Shown here: piece by piece, positions 6,541-23,900 of the stretch
Numbering within the stretch: position 1 is the first letter of the stretch
Layout: every line of letters starts with the position of its first letter
Assembly (NCBI GenBank): GCA_019239915.1
Contig: JAFAZF010000058.1
Coordinates: 1-64,000 of the forward strand
DNA from: Sphingomonadaceae bacterium
GTDB taxonomy: Bacteria > Pseudomonadota > Alphaproteobacteria > Sphingomonadales > Sphingomonadaceae
Length of the DNA: 64,000 nt
Direction of reading: 5' to 3'
Notes under the pieces: model-generated
Told to the model about the DNA's origin: nothing
Databases searched by the model: none
The model's input: only the letters and a program-made list of their open reading frames with translations
Program-made: the position numbers and the translations under genes

Positions 6541-7446
6541 ATGAAGTTCGCGCTCGAGTATCCGGTTAGCGCTCAGTCCTACGATCCGCGCCTCATCCGC
6601 GGGGACGGCCTGCGCACTCTCGCACGCGCGGCGGAACAGGCCGGGTTCGCGGCCATCGGATTCACTGAGCATCCAGCCCCATCGATGCGTTGGATGGAAA
6701 CGGGCGGCCACGACACGGTCGACCCGCTAACGGCCCTCGCCTTTTGCGCTGCCGTCACCAAGCGTATCGAGCTGATGCCTTACGCATTGATCCTGCCTTA
6801 TTACAACGCCTTCATGGCGGCCAAGCAACTGGCCAGCCTCGACCGATTTTCCGATGGCCGCCTGGTGCTCGTCGCCGGCACCGGATACCTTAAATCCGAG
6901 TTCCTCGCGCTCGGGCAGAACATCGAGGAGCGTAACGCCCGCTTCGACGAGGCGCTCGAAGCCATGCGCGCGGCGTGGACTCAGGCCCCGTGCAACTACG
7001 AGGGCGCGCATTTCACGGGACGGGGATTCGTCCAGTCGCCCATGTGCGATCGTGTGCCGCCTATCCTGATTGCTGGAAACAGCAGGCTCGCCCGCCGCCG
7101 GGCGGCTGCGCATGACGGCTGGAGCCCCTTGCTGATCAGCTCGCAGTTCAGTGATCTGGTCCGAACCGCCCCGTTGGAATCCATCGACGCGCTAGCGGCC
7201 GGCATCCGCGAAGTTTGCGATCTGGCCGGAGATCGCGCGGGGAAGTTGAGCTTCCAGGTCGAGACCGACCAGAACACCTTCCTTGAGAGCGGTCGCTCGG
7301 TCGAAGAGCATCGTGATCACCTGGGCCGGCTTGCCGAGGCCGGAATTGACCGCTTCATCGTCAAGGTCCCCGCGAACAGCGCCGAACATGCCGCCGACGC
7401 GTTGATGCATTACGGCGAGACGTTCATCGCGGCGGCCTCGGGTTAA
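6541..7446 (+). CDS. LLM class flavin-dependent oxidoreductase
   Basis: A 301-residue bacterial-luciferase-fold monooxygenase or F420-type oxidoreductase. Family markers include the N-terminal strand KFALEYPV, GFTEHPAP near residue 40, DPLTALAFCAAVTKRIEL (about 60-78), the SLDRFSDGRL motif (about 100) and PPILIAGNS near 175 before the barrel C terminus. These proteins use FMNH2 or F420H2 for oxygenation or hydride transfer. The start is set at ATG 6541, preceded by GGGAGAT; the frame extends to 6469 without support. It is the LLM gene nearest to the LuxE/LuxC-like pair, 3 kb downstream on the same strand, though not in the same operon. Confidence 0.85.
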   Translation: MKFALEYPVSAQSYDPRLIRGDGLRTLARAAEQAGFAAIGFTEHPAPSMRWMETGGHDTVDPLTALAFCAAVTKRIELMPYALILPYYNAFMAAKQLASLDRFSDGRLVLVAGTGYLKSEFLALGQNIEERNARFDEALEAMRAAWTQAPCNYEGAHFTGRGFVQSPMCDRVPPILIAGNSRLARRRAAAHDGWSPLLISSQFSDLVRTAPLESIDALAAGIREVCDLAGDRAGKLSFQVETDQNTFLESGRSVEEHRDHLGRLAEAGIDRFIVKVPANSAEHAADALMHYGETFIAAASG

Positions 7447-8302: not shown

Positions 8303-9583
8303 TCACGATACTTCCAAAGACTTTTGTGCTGATGGCCGTCCCGCCCCGAGCGCTGCCGAGATTCCCGCTGCAATGAGGTTCGCTGCCGTTTTCGCCTGCT
8401 CGTCGGCGAGATGCGCATAGCGTTGCGTCACGCTCGCATCTGCGTGTCCGAGCAGTTTGCCGATCACTGGAAGGCCGAGGCCGCCACCCGCTCCGACGCT
8501 TGCGAAGGTATGGCGCAGATCGTGGATCCGCAAACCGGCGAGATCCGCTGCATGCGTGATGAGCGCCCATGGGCGTTTGAGGTCGGCTCGGGGCTTTTCG
8601 GGATCGTTGCCGAAGATGACATAGTCGCCGGACTTGGAATGGGCTCGAAGAACGTCCTGCGCCGCCGCCGAGAGGATCACAGTCCTGCGGCCGCTCTTGC
8701 TGTCGGGCAACCGGAGCATGCCGCGCTCTAGATCGACATCCTTCCAGCGGGCGTGGAGGATCTCGCGAAGACGGCATCCGGTGAACAGAAGAAGCCGGAC
8801 CGCGGCGGTCTCGTCGACCGAAAGAAACGTGCGCTGGTTCTCGGGCTTTCGGTCGTGCTTCGACGCTTGGCGTCCCGCCCTTTGCGGCCACGGCAGGCCG
8901 TTCTCCGCTCCCTCGATCAAGGCAGCTCCGAGGCGCTGAAGCTCCTCCGTATTGAGATACCGCTCCCTCCCCTCCTCCTTGAACTTCTTGATTCCTCGGG
9001 CCGGGCTAGAGCCGACCGGAAGTATCTCGTCACCTTCCGCAAACCTGTAGACCGAACCGACCGCCGCCAGCATGCGGTTCGCAGTCACCGGTCGGGTCTT
9101 GCCCATTGCGCGGTGTAATTTTCGCACATCGCCGGTGCTGATCGCGTCGAGCTTGCAGCTGCCAAGGGCCGGGTAGACATATCGGGTGAGCACAGCCTTG
9201 TAATTCGCGATGGAAGCGGGCTTGAGCAGCTTGGCCGCGGCGGCTTCGCTTAAAAAGTCGTCCGCCATTGACCGAAAACTCGGCAGCTCGCGCGACGTCC
9301 TGCGCTGCTTTGCGGGGTCGCTCCCGCGCCGCACGTCGGCGAGGATTGCCCGCGCTTCCTTGCGGGCCGCATCGGGCGTAAAATCCGAGTTGTGGACGCC
9401 GAGCGTGATCTTACGCTTGGTCGCGCCGCGTCCGCCGGCTCCGGCGCGGTATTCGAGAATAAAGCTTTTCTGGCCCGAGGGCGAAATCCGAACGCCAAAT
9501 CCCCGAACTTCATCGTCCCATAGCGTGTAGCGGGCGCTGCCCGGCACAGCTTGGTCGACGATTAGCTTCGTCAGTTTTGACAT
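8303..9583 (-). CDS. P4-type tyrosine recombinase (integrase)
   Basis: A 426-residue site-specific recombinase of the phage P4/DUF4102 type. The N-terminal arm-binding domain (WDDEVRGFGVRISPSGQKSF, residues about 22-41) is followed by a SAM-like core-binding domain and a C-terminal catalytic domain with all active residues: R271 in GCRLRE, K296 in DSKSGRR, H354-x-x-R357 in HDLRH, H380 in LLGH and nucleophile Y389 in RYAHL. Such integrases insert islands into the 3' ends of tRNA genes. The gene starts 190 bp from a tRNA 3' fragment at 9772-9806. Reading frame and motifs are intact, so it may still be active. Confidence 0.95.
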   Translation of the reverse strand: MSKLTKLIVDQAVPGSARYTLWDDEVRGFGVRISPSGQKSFILEYRAGAGGRGATKRKITLGVHNSDFTPDAARKEARAILADVRRGSDPAKQRRTSRELPSFRSMADDFLSEAAAAKLLKPASIANYKAVLTRYVYPALGSCKLDAISTGDVRKLHRAMGKTRPVTANRMLAAVGSVYRFAEGDEILPVGSSPARGIKKFKEEGRERYLNTEELQRLGAALIEGAENGLPWPQRAGRQASKHDRKPENQRTFLSVDETAAVRLLLFTGCRLREILHARWKDVDLERGMLRLPDSKSGRRTVILSAAAQDVLRAHSKSGDYVIFGNDPEKPRADLKRPWALITHAADLAGLRIHDLRHTFASVGAGGGLGLPVIGKLLGHADASVTQRYAHLADEQAKTAANLIAAGISAALGAGRPSAQKSLEVS

Positions 9584-14917: not shown

Positions 14918-15973
14918 GTGAAGTTGGGCATTGAGATAGATTGGCAGCGTCGACGCTTCGATATCAATCGAGAACGGCTCCAGTTGGCTGACGAGCTCGG
15001 CTACGATTGCGTGTTCTCGGCAGAAGCGCATGGATCGGACGCGATTTCACCGCTCGGGTACGTGATCGGCTGCACGAAGCGAATCGGTGTCGGTACGCGG
15101 ATCGCGCAAAACAATTCGCGTTCACCTACCGCACTCGCCATGGCCTACCAGACGCTGCGTCACATGGGCGGGCCGGATCGGCTCGTTCTTGCAGGCATTG
15201 GCAGTTCGAACCCAGTGTCTGCTGAAGGCTGGCACGGCGTCCCCTGGACGGCCGCCGCGCCCCGAATGCGCGACGCCGTAGCGATCATGCGCAAGGCCGC
15301 TGCTGGAGACGTCGTGGAGCATCAAGGTAAGTTGATAAGCGTCCCCTACCGTCACACCGACGGCGGCGTGCGGCACTCGCCGATGGCACCTATCTTGGAG
15401 ACCGACCCTACGATCCCGATCCTGTTTGGCGGCGGCACTGAGCTCATGTTGACGCTGGCGGCGGAGATTGCCGACGGGCTTCTGCCCAATGGCAGCTGGT
15501 CGCCCGGGATGATGAAGGTCTACGGCCCTATGCTCCAGAAGGGTTTCGCCAAGCGCAAGACACCGATGAAGATCGAGGACTTCCCGGTTTGGGCGCATGT
15601 CGACGTAGTGGTGACGAACGACATCAAGGACTCCCTTTGGCAGTTCAAAGAATATACTGCGCGGTACGTCGGTGGTTACGGTGGCAGAGGTGGTCTCAGC
15701 ACGCACATGGAGTGGCGCGGCTATGGTGACGCTGTCGAGCGTATCACGGAACTTTACGAAGCCGGCCACATTCGCGAAGCGGAAGATGCGGTGCCAGACG
15801 AGTACATCGATGAGTGTTGGCTTATTGGGCCTATTGATCGAATTGTCGCAACCTGGCGCGACAAGTGGATTAACGACGGATGCAACTTGATCGTACGGGT
15901 CGACAACTGGCCGTCGGCGAAACCACAGGGCAATGACGTCTACGCGCCCCTGATCAAGGCGCTTTGCGACTGA
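14918..15973 (+). CDS. LLM class flavin-dependent oxidoreductase
   Basis: A 351-residue luciferase-fold protein, longer than and different from the other three in the window. Markers: KLGIEIDWQ strand at the N terminus, LADELGYDCVFSAEAHGSDA (about 24-43), TRIAQNNSRSPTALAMAYQTL (about 62-82) and IPILFGGGTELM near 168. A C-terminal segment (GPIDRIVATWRDKWINDGCN) closes the barrel. Start is GTG with AGGA upstream; no ATG in frame is better. Likely an FMN- or F420-dependent oxygenase or dehydrogenase acting on a pathway intermediate. It is followed by a hairpin over its stop codon and then an SDR gene. Confidence 0.85.
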   Translation: MKLGIEIDWQRRRFDINRERLQLADELGYDCVFSAEAHGSDAISPLGYVIGCTKRIGVGTRIAQNNSRSPTALAMAYQTLRHMGGPDRLVLAGIGSSNPVSAEGWHGVPWTAAAPRMRDAVAIMRKAAAGDVVEHQGKLISVPYRHTDGGVRHSPMAPILETDPTIPILFGGGTELMLTLAAEIADGLLPNGSWSPGMMKVYGPMLQKGFAKRKTPMKIEDFPVWAHVDVVVTNDIKDSLWQFKEYTARYVGGYGGRGGLSTHMEWRGYGDAVERITELYEAGHIREAEDAVPDEYIDECWLIGPIDRIVATWRDKWINDGCNLIVRVDNWPSAKPQGNDVYAPLIKALCD

Positions 15974-18797: not shown

Positions 18798-20021
18798 TTA
18801 GCCGAAATGCAGCCGGCGATACTTACCGCGAAAATAGAGCAGCGGATCACGTCTTGGCTCGAACTGGGCGCGCACGACTTCGCCCACTAGGATGAAATGA
18901 TCGCCACCCTCATGTACCGCGTGGCGCCGACACTCGAAGGAGATAAGCGAGGCATTCAAGAGCGGGACGCCCGTTTCGCCCGGCGCCCACGCCGTGCCTG
19001 CGAAACGGTCCTCCCCTTTACCAGCAAAACGACTCGAGGCTTGCTGCTGCCCTGTCTGCAGGACATTCACGCCGAAATGCGATGCTTCGCGCAATGTCGG
19101 GGCTGACCCGGCGCCGTTGGCGATGCACACCAGCAGGAGCGGCGGGCTCAGCGAGACGGACGTGAAGCTGTTCGCCGTGAGGCCGATAGGAACGTCATAG
19201 GAGGTAAGGGCGGTCACCACGGTGATGCCGGTGGCGAAGCAGCCCATCGCATCGCGTAGTGTGCGCGCGTCCGAGCCCGCCCGAAACTCGCTCGCCGCAC
19301 GCGGCTGGCGCCGATCGAGGAAATCGAGCAGGTATGCAAGGAAAGCCTCCGTTCGATCCGTGACGACCAGCAGATCGGCATCGGCAACCTCGACGAGCTC
19401 GACGTTGGGCAACGCGGCGTCGAAGGCCACGCTCCGCGCCGAGCGCTGAATCCAAGACAAGGCACCGCGCAGGACGAGGGTTGGCAGCGTCAGGCTCGGC
19501 GCCACCTCGATCAGCGTGCCGGCGACGCCCGCTATTCCGGACGATTGCAAGGTGCGCTCGTCCCATTGCCTAGCGCCGGGATCGTGCCGGTCCCGCAGGC
19601 GGTCGGCGACCTGTCGTGCGACATCAGGATCGGTCTCCACCGGCATGTCGACGAGCACCAGGGCGGCCGCCAGCGCCGCCGGATCATTCGCTAACGCGAT
19701 AGTGGCGATCCACCCACCTAGCGTGGCGGCCACAATGACCGGACGCGACGCCATCTGTGCCAAAACAGCGCGCAAATCCTCAACATGATCGGACAGTTCG
19801 TAGCTGCCATCGGCGGGCCACTCGCTGCCACCGTGACCCCGCAGGTCGAGACTGACTACGTGTCGCCCAGACTGAACGAGCGCCTCGGCAACCTCGCGCC
19901 AGACATGCCGTGTCTGGCCTGCGCCGTGGAGCAACAACACCGCGGGATCGTCGACGTCTCCATCCACTTCGGCCTCGAGCCGGACGCCGCCGAAGCCCTT
20001 GAAACTGACAGTCGTCACCAT
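18798..20021 (-). CDS. alpha/beta-hydrolase-like / flavin reductase fusion
   Basis: A 407-residue two-domain protein. Residues 1-255 are an alpha/beta-hydrolase fold (LLLHGAGQTRHVW oxyanion region, LDLRGHG) and residues about 262-407 an FMN-binding split-barrel flavin reductase (FATGITVVTA, LTANSFTSVSLSPPLLLVC, RFAGKGEDRFAG, GDHFILVGEV). The hydrolase triad appears lost: the nucleophile elbow reads AATLGG (Thr100 for Ser), the acid position is RGALSW (Trp for Asp) and the His position is ADADLL (Leu for His). The reductase half looks intact and could supply FMNH2 to the LLM enzymes nearby. ATG 20021 has GGAG upstream; the frame is open further without support. Confidence 0.85.
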   Translation of the reverse strand: MVTTVSFKGFGGVRLEAEVDGDVDDPAVLLLHGAGQTRHVWREVAEALVQSGRHVVSLDLRGHGGSEWPADGSYELSDHVEDLRAVLAQMASRPVIVAATLGGWIATIALANDPAALAAALVLVDMPVETDPDVARQVADRLRDRHDPGARQWDERTLQSSGIAGVAGTLIEVAPSLTLPTLVLRGALSWIQRSARSVAFDAALPNVELVEVADADLLVVTDRTEAFLAYLLDFLDRRQPRAASEFRAGSDARTLRDAMGCFATGITVVTALTSYDVPIGLTANSFTSVSLSPPLLLVCIANGAGSAPTLREASHFGVNVLQTGQQQASSRFAGKGEDRFAGTAWAPGETGVPLLNASLISFECRRHAVHEGGDHFILVGEVVRAQFEPRRDPLLYFRGKYRRLHFG

Positions 20022-20351: not shown

Positions 20352-21497
20352 CTAGACTACCACTCCACCCGCCACGAGTGTAGAAATGCGATCCGCTGAA
20401 TAGCCGATCGAGGCCAAGACCAGGGTAGCGTCCTGTCCAGGTTCACGAACAGGCATAGGTGGCGACGGGGGCGTGGCAGAAAAGCGCGGCGCCGGCGCGG
20501 GCTGGATATGTCCCGCAACCTCAACGTAAGTCTTTCTCGCTACTAAATGCGGATGATGCTTTGCTTCATCTAACGACATGACCGGCGCAAAGCACGCATC
20601 GTGTGCTGCGAAGACTTCACACCAGTGTTGGCGTGGCCGACTAAAGAACACTGCGGCAATCTTTTCGCGCAGCCTCGGCCAGCGAGCCCTGTCGAGTTGG
20701 TCATCAAAGTCGGGATCGTCAAGGATCCCCAGCACCGCTCGCAAGGCTCTATAGAATTGAGGCTCTATTGCTCCGATCGACACAAAGCGCCCATCGGCGC
20801 ACTCGAAAGTGCCGTAGAAGGGAGCGCCACCGTCGAGCAAATTGTCACCAGCCGCTTCTGACCACATACCACCAGCTTTTATCTGCCAGACCATTGCCGA
20901 TAGCAGCGCAGAGCCGTCTACCATGGCCGCATCCACTACCTGACCCGGCCCGCCCCTCGCGACAGAAAGAAGCGCGGCTGCCATACCAAACGCGAGCAGC
21001 ATCCCACCACCTCCGAAGTCTCCAACGTAATTAACAGGAGGCACGGGACGGTGGTCTCGTCCCGCAACGGTGCTGAGGATACCATTGACTGCGATGTAGT
21101 TTATGTCATGTCCCGCCATGCTTGCTAGTGGCCCTTCTTGACCCCAGCCGGTCATGCGTCCATAAACAAGCCGAGGATTGTCCTGGATTAGCGTATCGGG
21201 CGCGAGACCCAGTCGCTCCATTACACCGGGACGATACCCTTCTATCAAACCGTCAGCACTGAGCAGCAAGTCGCGCACTACCTGCAGTCCAGCAGGCGAT
21301 TTCATATCAACACCAATCACCTTTCGAGAGCGACCCAGAATATCAAATTGGCTAAGATTTCCAAACATTTCATTTGGCGTCTGGCGAGACACACGGATGA
21401 CCTCCGCACCGTGATCTGCGAGCATCATCGCGGTGAACGGTGCCGGCCCAATTCCAGAAAGTTCGATAATCCTGAGACCGTCCAGAGCACCAGGCAT
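20352..21497 (-). CDS. CaiB/BaiF CoA transferase, alpha-methylacyl-CoA racemase-like
   Basis: A 381-residue family III CoA-transferase protein of the AMACR/Mcr branch, which epimerises 2-methylacyl-CoA so that beta-oxidation of methyl-branched (steroid- or isoprenoid-type) chains can proceed. Signature features: GLRIIELSGIGPAPFTAMML at the N terminus, the catalytic-region motif MAGHDINYIAVNG (His-Asp pair) and VGDFGGGGMLLAFGMAAALL. ATG 21497 is preceded by TTGGAGGC; the frame runs on to 21527. It reads toward the fusion gene. This is the best hint in the window for a methyl-branched acyl-CoA intermediate. Confidence 0.88.
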   Translation of the reverse strand: MPGALDGLRIIELSGIGPAPFTAMMLADHGAEVIRVSRQTPNEMFGNLSQFDILGRSRKVIGVDMKSPAGLQVVRDLLLSADGLIEGYRPGVMERLGLAPDTLIQDNPRLVYGRMTGWGQEGPLASMAGHDINYIAVNGILSTVAGRDHRPVPPVNYVGDFGGGGMLLAFGMAAALLSVARGGPGQVVDAAMVDGSALLSAMVWQIKAGGMWSEAAGDNLLDGGAPFYGTFECADGRFVSIGAIEPQFYRALRAVLGILDDPDFDDQLDRARWPRLREKIAAVFFSRPRQHWCEVFAAHDACFAPVMSLDEAKHHPHLVARKTYVEVAGHIQPAPAPRFSATPPSPPMPVREPGQDATLVLASIGYSADRISTLVAGGVVV

Positions 21498-21889
21498 CTT
21501 TGCCTCCAATGATCCATGCTGGACCACAGCTAAAAAGCAGATCTTTCACTGTAGTCCAAGGCACTTGGTTCAATAGCGTTCATGTTTACAGTTTTTCAAC
21601 CCAACGACCTCGGGTACTGTAGCCAGATCTAGACCTGACTGACGCACATATTCGGAAGATGGTCTTATCGATCGCCTGGCTTGCTCGCGCGATACCGTTA
21701 TCCGGCAGCCCTCTCGCACCGATCCTCCCGCTACTACGCATGGTTTGCGCTTACTGCTACCACGCACGACGGCGACCCCCACGTTTGATGCCAAAATCGA
21801 TGTCAACGGGCGCCCAATAGAATGAATGCGACCGTTACGGTTCGCTAGAAGGAGCTCAGGGTACGAGACATATCGGCGCAGGAGTGGAC
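21498..21889. other. divergent intergenic region
   Basis: About 390 bases between the AMACR-like gene (leftward) and an LLM gene (rightward), AT-richer than the flanks and therefore promoter-like. No gene, no clear palindrome and no RNA were recognised. Confidence 0.4.
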
Positions 21890-22783
21890 ATGAAGGCTAT
21901 TCCAAAGATCGGCATCAACATCGTTCCCGTTCCGATCCAGCTGCTCACGCGTTTTGCCCGTTTAGCGGAGGAACTCGGCTTCGAATCACTCTGGTCGGGC
22001 GAGCATGTCTGCTTGCCGAACTCGGAGGATTGGTGGAAGCTTTATCCAAGTGTGGTCGCCGCGGGCGAACGAGGGCATTCCAGGCTGGTGCCGTTCACTC
22101 CCCACACTCAATTTCTAGATCCAATGGTGGTGCTTGCGAGCATAGCCGCGGTAACTTCGCGTGTCCGCCTCGGCATCGGAATCTATCTGCTGGCGTTGCG
22201 CGAGGCTGTGCTCGTCGGGCGCACGATCGCATCGCTCGATCAGCTTAGTGGGGGCCGGCTCGATCTCGGCGTCGGCTTGGGGTGGACGCCGGACGAATAT
22301 AGCTTCACCGGAAACGATTGGAACAAGCGCGGGCGCAAGATGGACGAGACCATTCTGGCGCTGCGAGCACTGTTTGAGCAGAAAAGCCCGGAGTTCCACG
22401 GAGAGTTCTATGATTTTCCGCCGATCGGCTTTGAACCGAAGCCCGTTCAGAAGCCATTGCCGATCCATGTTGGCGGCTTTGGAGCAGCGGCGGAGCGGCG
22501 AGCGGCGAAGCTAGGCAATGGCTGGTACGGTGCCGCATCTCACATCCCTGCGGTTCGAGAGCTGCTGGCCGAGAACGGCCGAGCCGACGACCCTTTTACG
22601 TTCGGGATGATCGATCCGCGCGAGATGATCGCGCGCCCGGAACTGGACAACTTGGCCGCGCAGGGTGTGGATCGCGTCGTTGTCACTATCTGGTCCGATC
22701 GTGACGTGGCACGCGGCGGAGAAAGCCAGGATGCGCCCCTATTCGCACTTGAGCAATATGCCAAACGGATCGGTCTCGCCTGA
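21890..22783 (+). CDS. LLM class flavin-dependent oxidoreductase
   Basis: A 297-residue luciferase-fold oxidoreductase. Motifs: GINIVPVPIQ, FARLAEELGFESLWSGEHV (about 24-42), DPMVVLASIAAVTSRVRLGIGI (about 68-89), ASLDQLSGGRLDLGVGLGW (about 107-125), GFEPKPVQKPLPIHVGG (about 175-191). This pattern fits the F420-type or FMN-type LLM branch with conserved G-x-G-W. ATG 21890 has AGGAG 5 nt upstream; the GTG at 21884 is an alternative. Its stop lies 3 nt from the stop of a convergent close paralogue, so the two probably arose by duplication with inversion. Confidence 0.87.
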   Translation: MKAIPKIGINIVPVPIQLLTRFARLAEELGFESLWSGEHVCLPNSEDWWKLYPSVVAAGERGHSRLVPFTPHTQFLDPMVVLASIAAVTSRVRLGIGIYLLALREAVLVGRTIASLDQLSGGRLDLGVGLGWTPDEYSFTGNDWNKRGRKMDETILALRALFEQKSPEFHGEFYDFPPIGFEPKPVQKPLPIHVGGFGAAAERRAAKLGNGWYGAASHIPAVRELLAENGRADDPFTFGMIDPREMIARPELDNLAAQGVDRVVVTIWSDRDVARGGESQDAPLFALEQYAKRIGLA

Positions 22784-22786
22784 CAC

Positions 22787-23638
22787 TCAGCTGGAGAGTC
22801 CGATCTCGCCGGCGTATTCGGCAATGCGAGGCAGCGCGTTGGCGTAATCGTAACCCCACGGCGTGACCACAACACGATCGACACCCGCGATAGCGAGTTC
22901 CTCAAGCTCCGCGCGACTTGGAGCCCCAGCGCATGGCAACCCTTCGTGATAAACAAGCACGTATTCGAAGGGCATTCCGACGCGTCCAATAGCGCCTCGA
23001 AAACGCTCGATTTGATCGCGATGAGCGAGGAAATCGTCGACAGTATGGACGACCCCATACCAGCCATCCCACCGGGCAGCGCGTTTAAGAGCCGCCTCGC
23101 TGACACCGCCGACGAGGAAAGGAGGCCGCGGCCTTTGAACCGGCTTTGGCTCGAACCGTGTCGGCGCGACACGGTAATATCGGCCTTCAAAGCTGATGTC
23201 GCCAGGCTGAAAGAGGCGATCGATAAGGTCGAGCTGCTCGTCCAGCCGTGCGCCTCGCGTCCGCATATCGGTGCCGGCCGCATCATACTCGTCCTGCAGC
23301 CAACCCAATCCTACCGCCATATCAAAACGGCCATTCGAAACGTGATCGATCGCCAGGATCTGTCGCGCCGCCATGATCGGCGGCCGCAACGGCAGCATCA
23401 GGATGCCGGTTGCAAGCCGGATGCGCGACGTCTTTGCGGCTAGACCGGCGAGCAGCACCAAGGGATCAAGCAGCTCTTGGGGACCATAAGGCTGCGGCTT
23501 CACCGGGAAGTCAGTGTTATGCGGCAGCACGATATGCTCGCCATACCAGATCGAATCATAATTGAGCGCGTCTGCGAGAGCCGCGGCCGCTGCGTGCTCA
23601 CTCGCACGCATGCTGATTATGCTCAGGCCGATCTTCAT
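22787..23638 (-). CDS. LLM class flavin-dependent oxidoreductase
   Basis: A 283-residue paralogue of the neighbouring LLM protein, sharing SIWYGEHIVLPHNTDFP, DPLVLLAGLAAKTSRIRLATGI, NGRFDMAVGLGWLQDEYDAAG and TRFEPKPVQRPRPPFLVGG in the same order. The start is ATG 23638 because GAGGAGG precedes it; the frame extends to 23767 into SDR debris. It probably catalyses an analogous reaction on a related intermediate. Upstream of it lies only the decayed SDR fragment. Confidence 0.87.
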   Translation of the reverse strand: MKIGLSIISMRASEHAAAAALADALNYDSIWYGEHIVLPHNTDFPVKPQPYGPQELLDPLVLLAGLAAKTSRIRLATGILMLPLRPPIMAARQILAIDHVSNGRFDMAVGLGWLQDEYDAAGTDMRTRGARLDEQLDLIDRLFQPGDISFEGRYYRVAPTRFEPKPVQRPRPPFLVGGVSEAALKRAARWDGWYGVVHTVDDFLAHRDQIERFRGAIGRVGMPFEYVLVYHEGLPCAGAPSRAELEELAIAGVDRVVVTPWGYDYANALPRIAEYAGEIGLSS

Positions 23639-23651
23639 CCCTTTCACCTCC

Positions 23652-23900
23652 TCAGGCACAAGCTGAATGAAGCTCGCGCTCCCGACAGAGCACTTGCGCT
23701 TCGATTTCGCTGCCGGCCAGCGCCTCGGCTTCCGGATTGGTGACGAACCAGACGATGACCTCGCCAATCGCAGTGAGCGGCCGCGGGGCCGACGAGCTCA
23801 TGCCTATAGTCACGAACGGAGTTCTGTTTGCGCTGCGTGTCGCCGAAGCCCGGCTGCACATTTAACGGCTCGACGCCCGCGACTAACTCCGCATCGCGAG
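23652..23900 (-). pseudogene. decayed C-terminal fragment of an SDR
   Basis: The minus strand encodes pieces matching the SDR at 10207-11076: GVEPLNVQPGFGDTQRKQNS and VRDYRHELVG in one frame, then APRPLTAIGEVIVWFVTN, ALAGSEIEAQVLCREREL and stop in another, mirroring NVQPGFVGTERN, YGHEL, AIGAVVGWLV and IEAQDLCREKELYPAW there. A frameshift separates the two parts and the N-terminal two thirds are missing. It is a paralogue relic, not part of the LLM gene. Confidence 0.7.

Follow-up and report, generated by a model that had tools for sequence, protein, structure and literature searches.

A flavin reductase gene with a fused, probably inactive alpha/beta-hydrolase-fold domain in a Sphingomonadaceae genome

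The stretch of DNA analyzed here (the window: 64,000 nt, positions 1 to 64,000 of contig JAFAZF010000058.1 in the Sphingomonadaceae assembly GCA_019239915.1) includes a gene whose predicted product joins an alpha/beta-hydrolase-fold domain to a flavin reductase domain (Table 1). By eye, a GGAGA run can be read 7 bases before its ATG. Its neighbors are a CaiB-type gene, SDRs, acyl-CoA dehydrogenases (the nearest SDRs and dehydrogenases named by eye), and three luciferase-like monooxygenase (LLM) genes.

Table 1. Positions in the window of the fusion gene, its domains and key residues, and neighboring genes.
Feature	Position	Strand	Remarks
Pseudo-hydrolase/flavin reductase fusion, whole CDS, 407 aa, ATG start	18798..20021	minus	Exact coordinates
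N-terminal alpha/beta-hydrolase-fold domain, residues 1-240	19302..20021	minus	Pfam; AF2 model; Z 24.3 to 4l0c
C-terminal flavin reductase domain, residues 250-407	18801..19274	minus	Pfam; PDB sequence matches 5zc2, 3rh7
R53	19863..19865	minus	104/104 fusions; Tyr/Phe in 28/30 stand-alones; precedes strand 54-58, opposite face
R93	19743..19745	minus	104/104 fusions; precedes strand 95-99, opposite face
Nucleophile column, T100	19722..19724	minus	Ser in 30/30 stand-alone relatives, 16/104 fusions
D125 after strand 6, possible alternative acid, kept	19647..19649	minus	Asp in 30/30 stand-alones, 95/104 fusions
Acid column after strand 7, W190	19452..19454	minus	Asp in 22/30 stand-alones; Trp in 15/104 fusions
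Histidine column, L217	19371..19373	minus	His in 30/30 stand-alones; Leu in 74/104 fusions
GDH motif of reductase, residues 373-375	18897..18905	minus	In 103/104 fusions; the remaining sequence stops before the motif
CoA-transferase family III (CaiB type), upstream of fusion	20352..21527	minus	Same strand as fusion
LLM protein	21884..22783	plus	Passes TIGR03619 (F420-dependent subfamily) cut-off
LLM protein	22787..23767	minus	Passes TIGR03619 (F420-dependent subfamily) cut-off
LLM protein	14918..15973	plus	Best NCBIfam match TIGR03559, 208.7 bits, below cut-off 335

Pfam places Abhydrolase_1 (PF00561) at residues 26-144 (67.7 bits; cut-off 25.8) and Flavin_Reduct (PF01613) at residues 259-404 (144.4 bits; gathering cut-off 27). 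All 48 aligned fusions match Flavin_Reduct at E ≤ 0.001, and 42 of the 48 match Abhydrolase_1. An AF2 model of the window protein, made with a 48-row alignment, has a mean pLDDT of 78.8 and a pTM of 0.68, with values below 50 at residues 215-219 (the loop with the histidine column) and 391-407. Its residues 1-240 superpose on genuine hydrolases: 4l0c with Z 24.3 and an rmsd of 2.6 Å over 218 residues, then 3bwx, from Novosphingobium aromaticivorans, with Z 24.0. A preliminary description of this DNA had proposed such a fusion from the sequence, and the coordinates, both Pfam matches and the fold match (Z about 24) all bear it out. An annotation or assembly artefact is ruled out by full-length fusions in named isolates and many metagenome-assembled genomes.

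The reductase half is closest in sequence to C1 (5zc2), 3rh7 and 3nfw. Its top NCBIfam scores are to HsaB (NF045630; 152.8 bits) and FerA (NF052639; 148.3 bits), reaching neither equivalog cut-off (230 and 260, respectively). It has the GDH motif, which we take to bind NAD(P)H, and a ANSFTSVSLDPPL-type stretch is present in nearly all fusions. The earlier statement that the reductase keeps its motifs agrees with the near-universal GDH and the Flavin_Reduct score; the motifs are intact in the window protein, and NAD(P)H-dependent flavin reduction is predicted for it.

The hydrolase half had been described as having lost its whole catalytic triad. Aligned with 30 stand-alone hydrolases from the same family of bacteria, the window protein has Thr100, Trp190 and Leu217 in the columns of Ser, acid and His. 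Ser and His are found in all 30 of these controls, and column 190 is Asp in 22, Glu in 4 and something else in 4, so the alignment detects triads where they are present. The 4 without Asp or Glu at column 190 all have D125, a site after strand 6 that is presumably the alternative acid position, as in haloalkane dehalogenases. The window protein also has D125, so Ser and His can be counted as firmly lost but the acid cannot: D125 may be the true acid of the family, and the earlier claim holds for two of its three residues. An intact triad elsewhere in the protein was also considered and rejected, the hydrolase domain having no Cys and no His after residue 146; the acid alone has a credible alternative, D125. 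As read from the alignment, Ser and His are certainly lost, and the domain is probably dead as a serine hydrolase.

To place this protein among its relatives, 117 fused sequences (window protein included) were collected from a species-level genome collection and whole-genome searches, of which 104, again including the window protein, are distinct. Dropped before this count were L078 (interrupted frame), L100 (wrong frame chosen), 13 duplicates, 9 stand-alone reductases and 16 unfused outgroup reductases. The nucleophile column of the 104 holds T in 35, G in 31, S in 16, R in 16, M in 4 and A in 2; column 190 is mostly P, A, W, Q or E, with 2 D; and the histidine column is L in 74 and H in 12 (13 in a second alignment). 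Ser, Asp or Glu at 190, and His occur together in none of the 104, and 101 lack Ser, His or both. The exceptions, in which Ser, His and D125 are all present, are L068 and L073 (both Hyphomonas) and L114 (from a genome in the same family as the window's); these would have the full triad set with D125 as the acid. The dead state is thus the rule rather than a law, and the question raised in the preliminary description, whether all two-domain homologues have lost the triad, is answered yes, as far as Ser or His is concerned, for the great majority and possibly no for these three. The dead state most likely arose after the fusion. Of 17 window-type sequences, 15 combine T100, W190 and L217 and two have R or P at 190; such a co-occurrence could reflect a remodelled pocket.

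L068, L073 and L114 are possibly still active hydrolases, judging from these columns. That some members are bifunctional, and that even the window domain catalyzes through Thr100, D125 or other residues, would fit these three, as well as L141 and L142, whose columns read T-E-H, and the presence of D125 in 95 of 104 fusions. We nonetheless consider it improbable: the window protein lacks His at 217 and anywhere after residue 146 of the domain, and 53 of the 104 fusions carry G, R, M or A in the nucleophile column.

A rooted tree was computed for the reductase domains of 44 fused, 9 stand-alone and 5 outgroup proteins (58 rows), leaving out 8 long-branch unfused rows, the long-branch fused L091, and fused rows more than 93% alike. 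Its early branches are fused proteins, and the stand-alones sit inside the fused set at two places. A topology in which all fused rows form one group is rejected (AU p 0.0005; the test was picked after the first tree, in which the unfused, long-branch L132 was placed among the Hyphomonas fusions, at 94/0). Eight stand-alones form one clade (100/99) nested in a 37-row group (100/94), and the ninth, L128, has a long branch and is weakly placed (85/61), so that the hydrolase domain was firmly lost once and probably a second time. On this tree the minimum number of changes is 2 for fused versus stand-alone, 6 for His and 4 for Ser. The cap stretch, 45 residues in the window protein, has 9 or fewer in 35 of the 104 fusions, mostly from Sphingopyxis, although the Sphingopyxis sequences L014 and L018 retain it; the HGxGQTR loop is changed in nearly all of these 35. 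A model of one capless member, L027 (pLDDT 79.9, pTM 0.61), still has a hydrolase core, matching 2o2g with Z 22.9 and 2.0 Å over 187 residues. A mostly Sphingopyxis clade has lost the cap, and a clade nested within the fusions the whole hydrolase domain.

Possible hydrolase remnants upstream of stand-alone reductases were rejected: weak tblastn hits, at best E 3.7e-4 in L148 and 0.001 in L124, overlap a phenylalanine 4-hydroxylase-type gene out of frame, and weaker ones in L150 (E 0.018) lie over another gene; all are taken as chance. This phenylalanine 4-hydroxylase-type gene was recognized by eye in L148, L124, L121 and L122; the sole copy scored, that of L189, reaches 239.0 bits, below the cut-off of 264.75. 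Within the reductase domain, most of the eight stand-alones (L121, L122, L124, L127 and L148-L151) have N330 changed to I, A333 to S, R391 to L and K400 to S, at positions near-invariant in the fusions. L128, which probably represents a second loss, still has A, R and K at 333, 391 and 400. From their sequence pattern, these four positions are possible former interface residues.

The hydrolase domain is under purifying selection in several clades (dN/dS by NG86, with dS near 0.8 and non-independent pairs). For residues 5-125, median dN/dS is 0.052 in window-type sequences (5 pairs only) and 0.041 (60 pairs) in a Sphingorhabdus-rich set, whose selection by cap length and by Leu at the histidine column brought in a few others; capless members give 0.148 (352 pairs) and the mixed remainder 0.168 (4 pairs). 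For residues 173-238 the medians are 0.091, 0.097, 0.177 and 0.192 in the same order, and for the reductase domain 0.032-0.048. The higher values in the capless and mixed sets, like step-wise erosion, cap loss and the disappearance of the whole domain in nested lineages (AU p 0.0005), could be read as the slow decay of a passenger, a domain left from an old fusion and kept merely because clean removal is rare. The low values of the two other sets (0.041-0.052) speak against this, as do a fold that stays intact even after cap loss and a set of residues that is invariant on one face of the domain in fusions but not in stand-alone hydrolases; a passenger seems rather unlikely.

Of these invariant residues, R53, L87 and R93 lie opposite the old active site, which in the hydrolase fold sits at the ends of the strands (after strands). 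P26, G52, R53, L87 and R93 are found in 104 of 104 fusions, and Q89 in 96%. Mean column entropy on the opposite face (before strands) is 1.44 bits in fusions versus 1.93 in stand-alones, and on the active-site face (after strands) 1.85 versus 0.85, computed after thinning at 75% identity to 40 fusions and 24 stand-alones. None of 10,000 permutations equaled the face contrast, a post hoc result in that the hypothesis was drawn from the same sequences, which makes it a lead rather than a proof. Capless members have entropies of 0.43 on the opposite face and 0.93 on the active face (22 rows thinned at 90%), and in capped fusions the faces are alike, at 1.25 and 1.22 (24 rows). Because R53, L87 and R93 lie opposite the active site, on the face whose conservation in fusions exceeds that in active relatives, a structural or docking role is favored over a substrate pocket, and the opposite face would be a packing or docking surface, a reading made post hoc. 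The earlier suggestion that a hydrolase shell was recruited for binding survives in part: the fold is intact (Z 24.3), nucleophile and His are gone, and the domain is under purifying selection, but across fusions conservation is lower on the old active-site face, which goes against a substrate being held there.

A sensor is another possibility: a pathway substrate in the old pocket would switch the reductase on, as in C1, the top solved-structure sequence match (5zc2, E 7.2e-35), whose extra domain is reported to bind substrate. In window-type sequences, the constant T-W-L columns (15 of 17) and the low dN/dS of residues 5-125 (0.052, 5 pairs) would suit this. Against it, the active-site face is the one that varies family-wide, the cap site is down to 9 or fewer residues in 35 of 104 fusions, and gene neighbors, hence likely substrates, vary between genera. 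On balance a ligand sensor is unlikely.

Another earlier proposal was that the domain keeps an LLM monooxygenase, or the substrate of one, close to the source of FMNH2, the fusion lying among LLM genes that need reduced flavin. Three such genes are indeed within about 4 kb of it, but two of them score as F420-type (213.8 and 205.5 bits against TIGR03619, cut-off 166.9), so that reduced flavin is not necessarily needed. A profile of 19 LLMs, which finds all 4 in the window, found none near a fusion or stand-alone reductase in 80 related loci, 60 of which span 10 kb or more, or in 21 further regions, nor were relatives of the three neighboring LLMs found in any of the 80. Fifteen of the 19 LLM matches of the genome lie outside the window. 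A shell for an LLM partner is accordingly very improbable. The fusion had been called the only flavin reductase, which is true of the window, whereas four Flavin_Reduct matches are present genome-wide.

In all, 19 luciferase-like monooxygenase family matches in the window's genome are over cut-off, 4 of them in the window, including one at 6595-7122. CofD and CofE adjoin, both over cut-off, on a 6.5-kb contig of this genome (G000:C69:4826-6474). In the genome as a whole CofH has no match and CofG reaches just 20.3 bits; the contig could represent a partial F420 pathway or be mis-binned.

No constant neighbor or partner gene of the fusion was found among the 80 loci, and its neighbors differ between genera. 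Those counted, from mechanical ORFs with each cluster named from one representative, are an NMO-type gene (31 loci), a 4HBT thioesterase (19), HPPD directly after the fusion (16), and a thiolase-like gene and a ChsH2-type OB-fold gene (9 each). A phenylalanine 4-hydroxylase-type gene is present in four of five stand-alone-reductase regions (L189, L192, L195, L196), next to the reductase in three; in L189, L195 and L196 it is just upstream, with HPPD within five genes. In such loci a flavin reductase lies beside genes of Phe/Tyr breakdown.

The family is patchy within the Alphaproteobacteria. Counting stand-alone orthologues in, there are matches at E ≤ 1e-60 in 42 of 296 genomes of the order and 23 of 298 of the family, and full-length fusions at E ≤ 1e-40 in 4 of 385 genomes of the class. 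Among 398 genomes of the phylum (E ≤ 1e-44, 4 candidates scored per genome), no fusion was found outside the class, all matches belonging to it; other phyla were covered through plasmids (one record) and a genome-contig scan. L078, with 81% identity over residues 174-406, is on a contig labelled Phycisphaerales, and is either mis-binned or transferred. At E ≤ 1e-60 there is no match in any of the six genomes listed for the same genus, so the fusion gene is accessory in the window's genome. A tyrosine-type integrase (Phage_integrase, Arm-DNA-bind_3) lies at 8306-9583, about 9 kb from the fusion, and no tRNA genes were found in the window; the integrase, with the absence from the six genomes, hints at an acquired segment. 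No account of the fusion was found in the open-access literature, subscription papers being mostly outside this search.

Taken together, the best explanation, to which we give close to an even chance, is an HpaC/HsaB-type reductase with a dead N-terminal hydrolase domain that is kept as a scaffold and has been dismantled in some lineages. The fusion would have started with a working or nearly working hydrolase, as L068, L073 and L114, which still keep Ser, His and D125, suggest. Once hydrolase activity was no longer needed, the active site would have decayed many times over, and the domain would have been retained as a scaffold packing on the reductase through its opposite face, around R53, Q89 and R93, with possible effects on stability, flavin release or the arrangement of the dimer. 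Flavin reduced with NAD(P)H would pass from the reductase to the flavin-using enzymes of each host, without one fixed partner. A bolder form of the idea, possible but doubtful, is that throughout this alphaproteobacterial family a former esterase has turned into an interaction module that controls the flavin reductase through its back face, with near-complete, dead, capless and domainless forms side by side.

The family offers a natural series, from fusions that retain Ser and His through dead and capless fusions to unfused reductases, in which one can ask what a pseudoenzyme domain does to its catalytic partner and when it becomes dispensable. The one annotated entry examined, from an Agrobacterium vitis plasmid, is called merely "alpha/beta fold hydrolase," which hides the flavin reductase and implies an activity that, going by their residues, most members probably do not have.

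Of known systems, HsaB, FerA, StyB and HpaC are stand-alone reductases that share the reductase domain with the window protein, which scores below the HsaB and FerA cut-offs. On the hydrolase side, a stand-alone protein of the same genome (G000:C42:173759-174595) has the same fold, the HGGGQTR and RGHG motifs and 43% identity over residues 2-143; stand-alone hydrolases of the same bacterial family, unlike the window protein, are unfused, keep Ser and His (30 of 30 each) and have a longer cap. Neuroligin, thyroglobulin and NDRG are eukaryotic and, to our knowledge, not fused to flavin enzymes. They too reuse the hydrolase fold non-catalytically (PMC5943944, PMC7022630), for example in protein contacts. 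The C1 reductase of p-hydroxyphenylacetate 3-hydroxylase from Acinetobacter (5zc2/5zyr) belongs to the same reductase family (phmmer E 7.2e-35 over residues 251-402) and likewise has an extra fused domain. The window protein ends with its reductase, and no C-terminal MarR-like domain is present; its extra domain is N-terminal and hydrolase-fold, whereas that of C1 is C-terminal, MarR-like and reported to bind substrate (PMC10816480). In C1, as described there, 4-HPA relieves self-inhibition and makes flavin reduction at least 30-fold faster, so that fused sensor domains on such reductases are already known.
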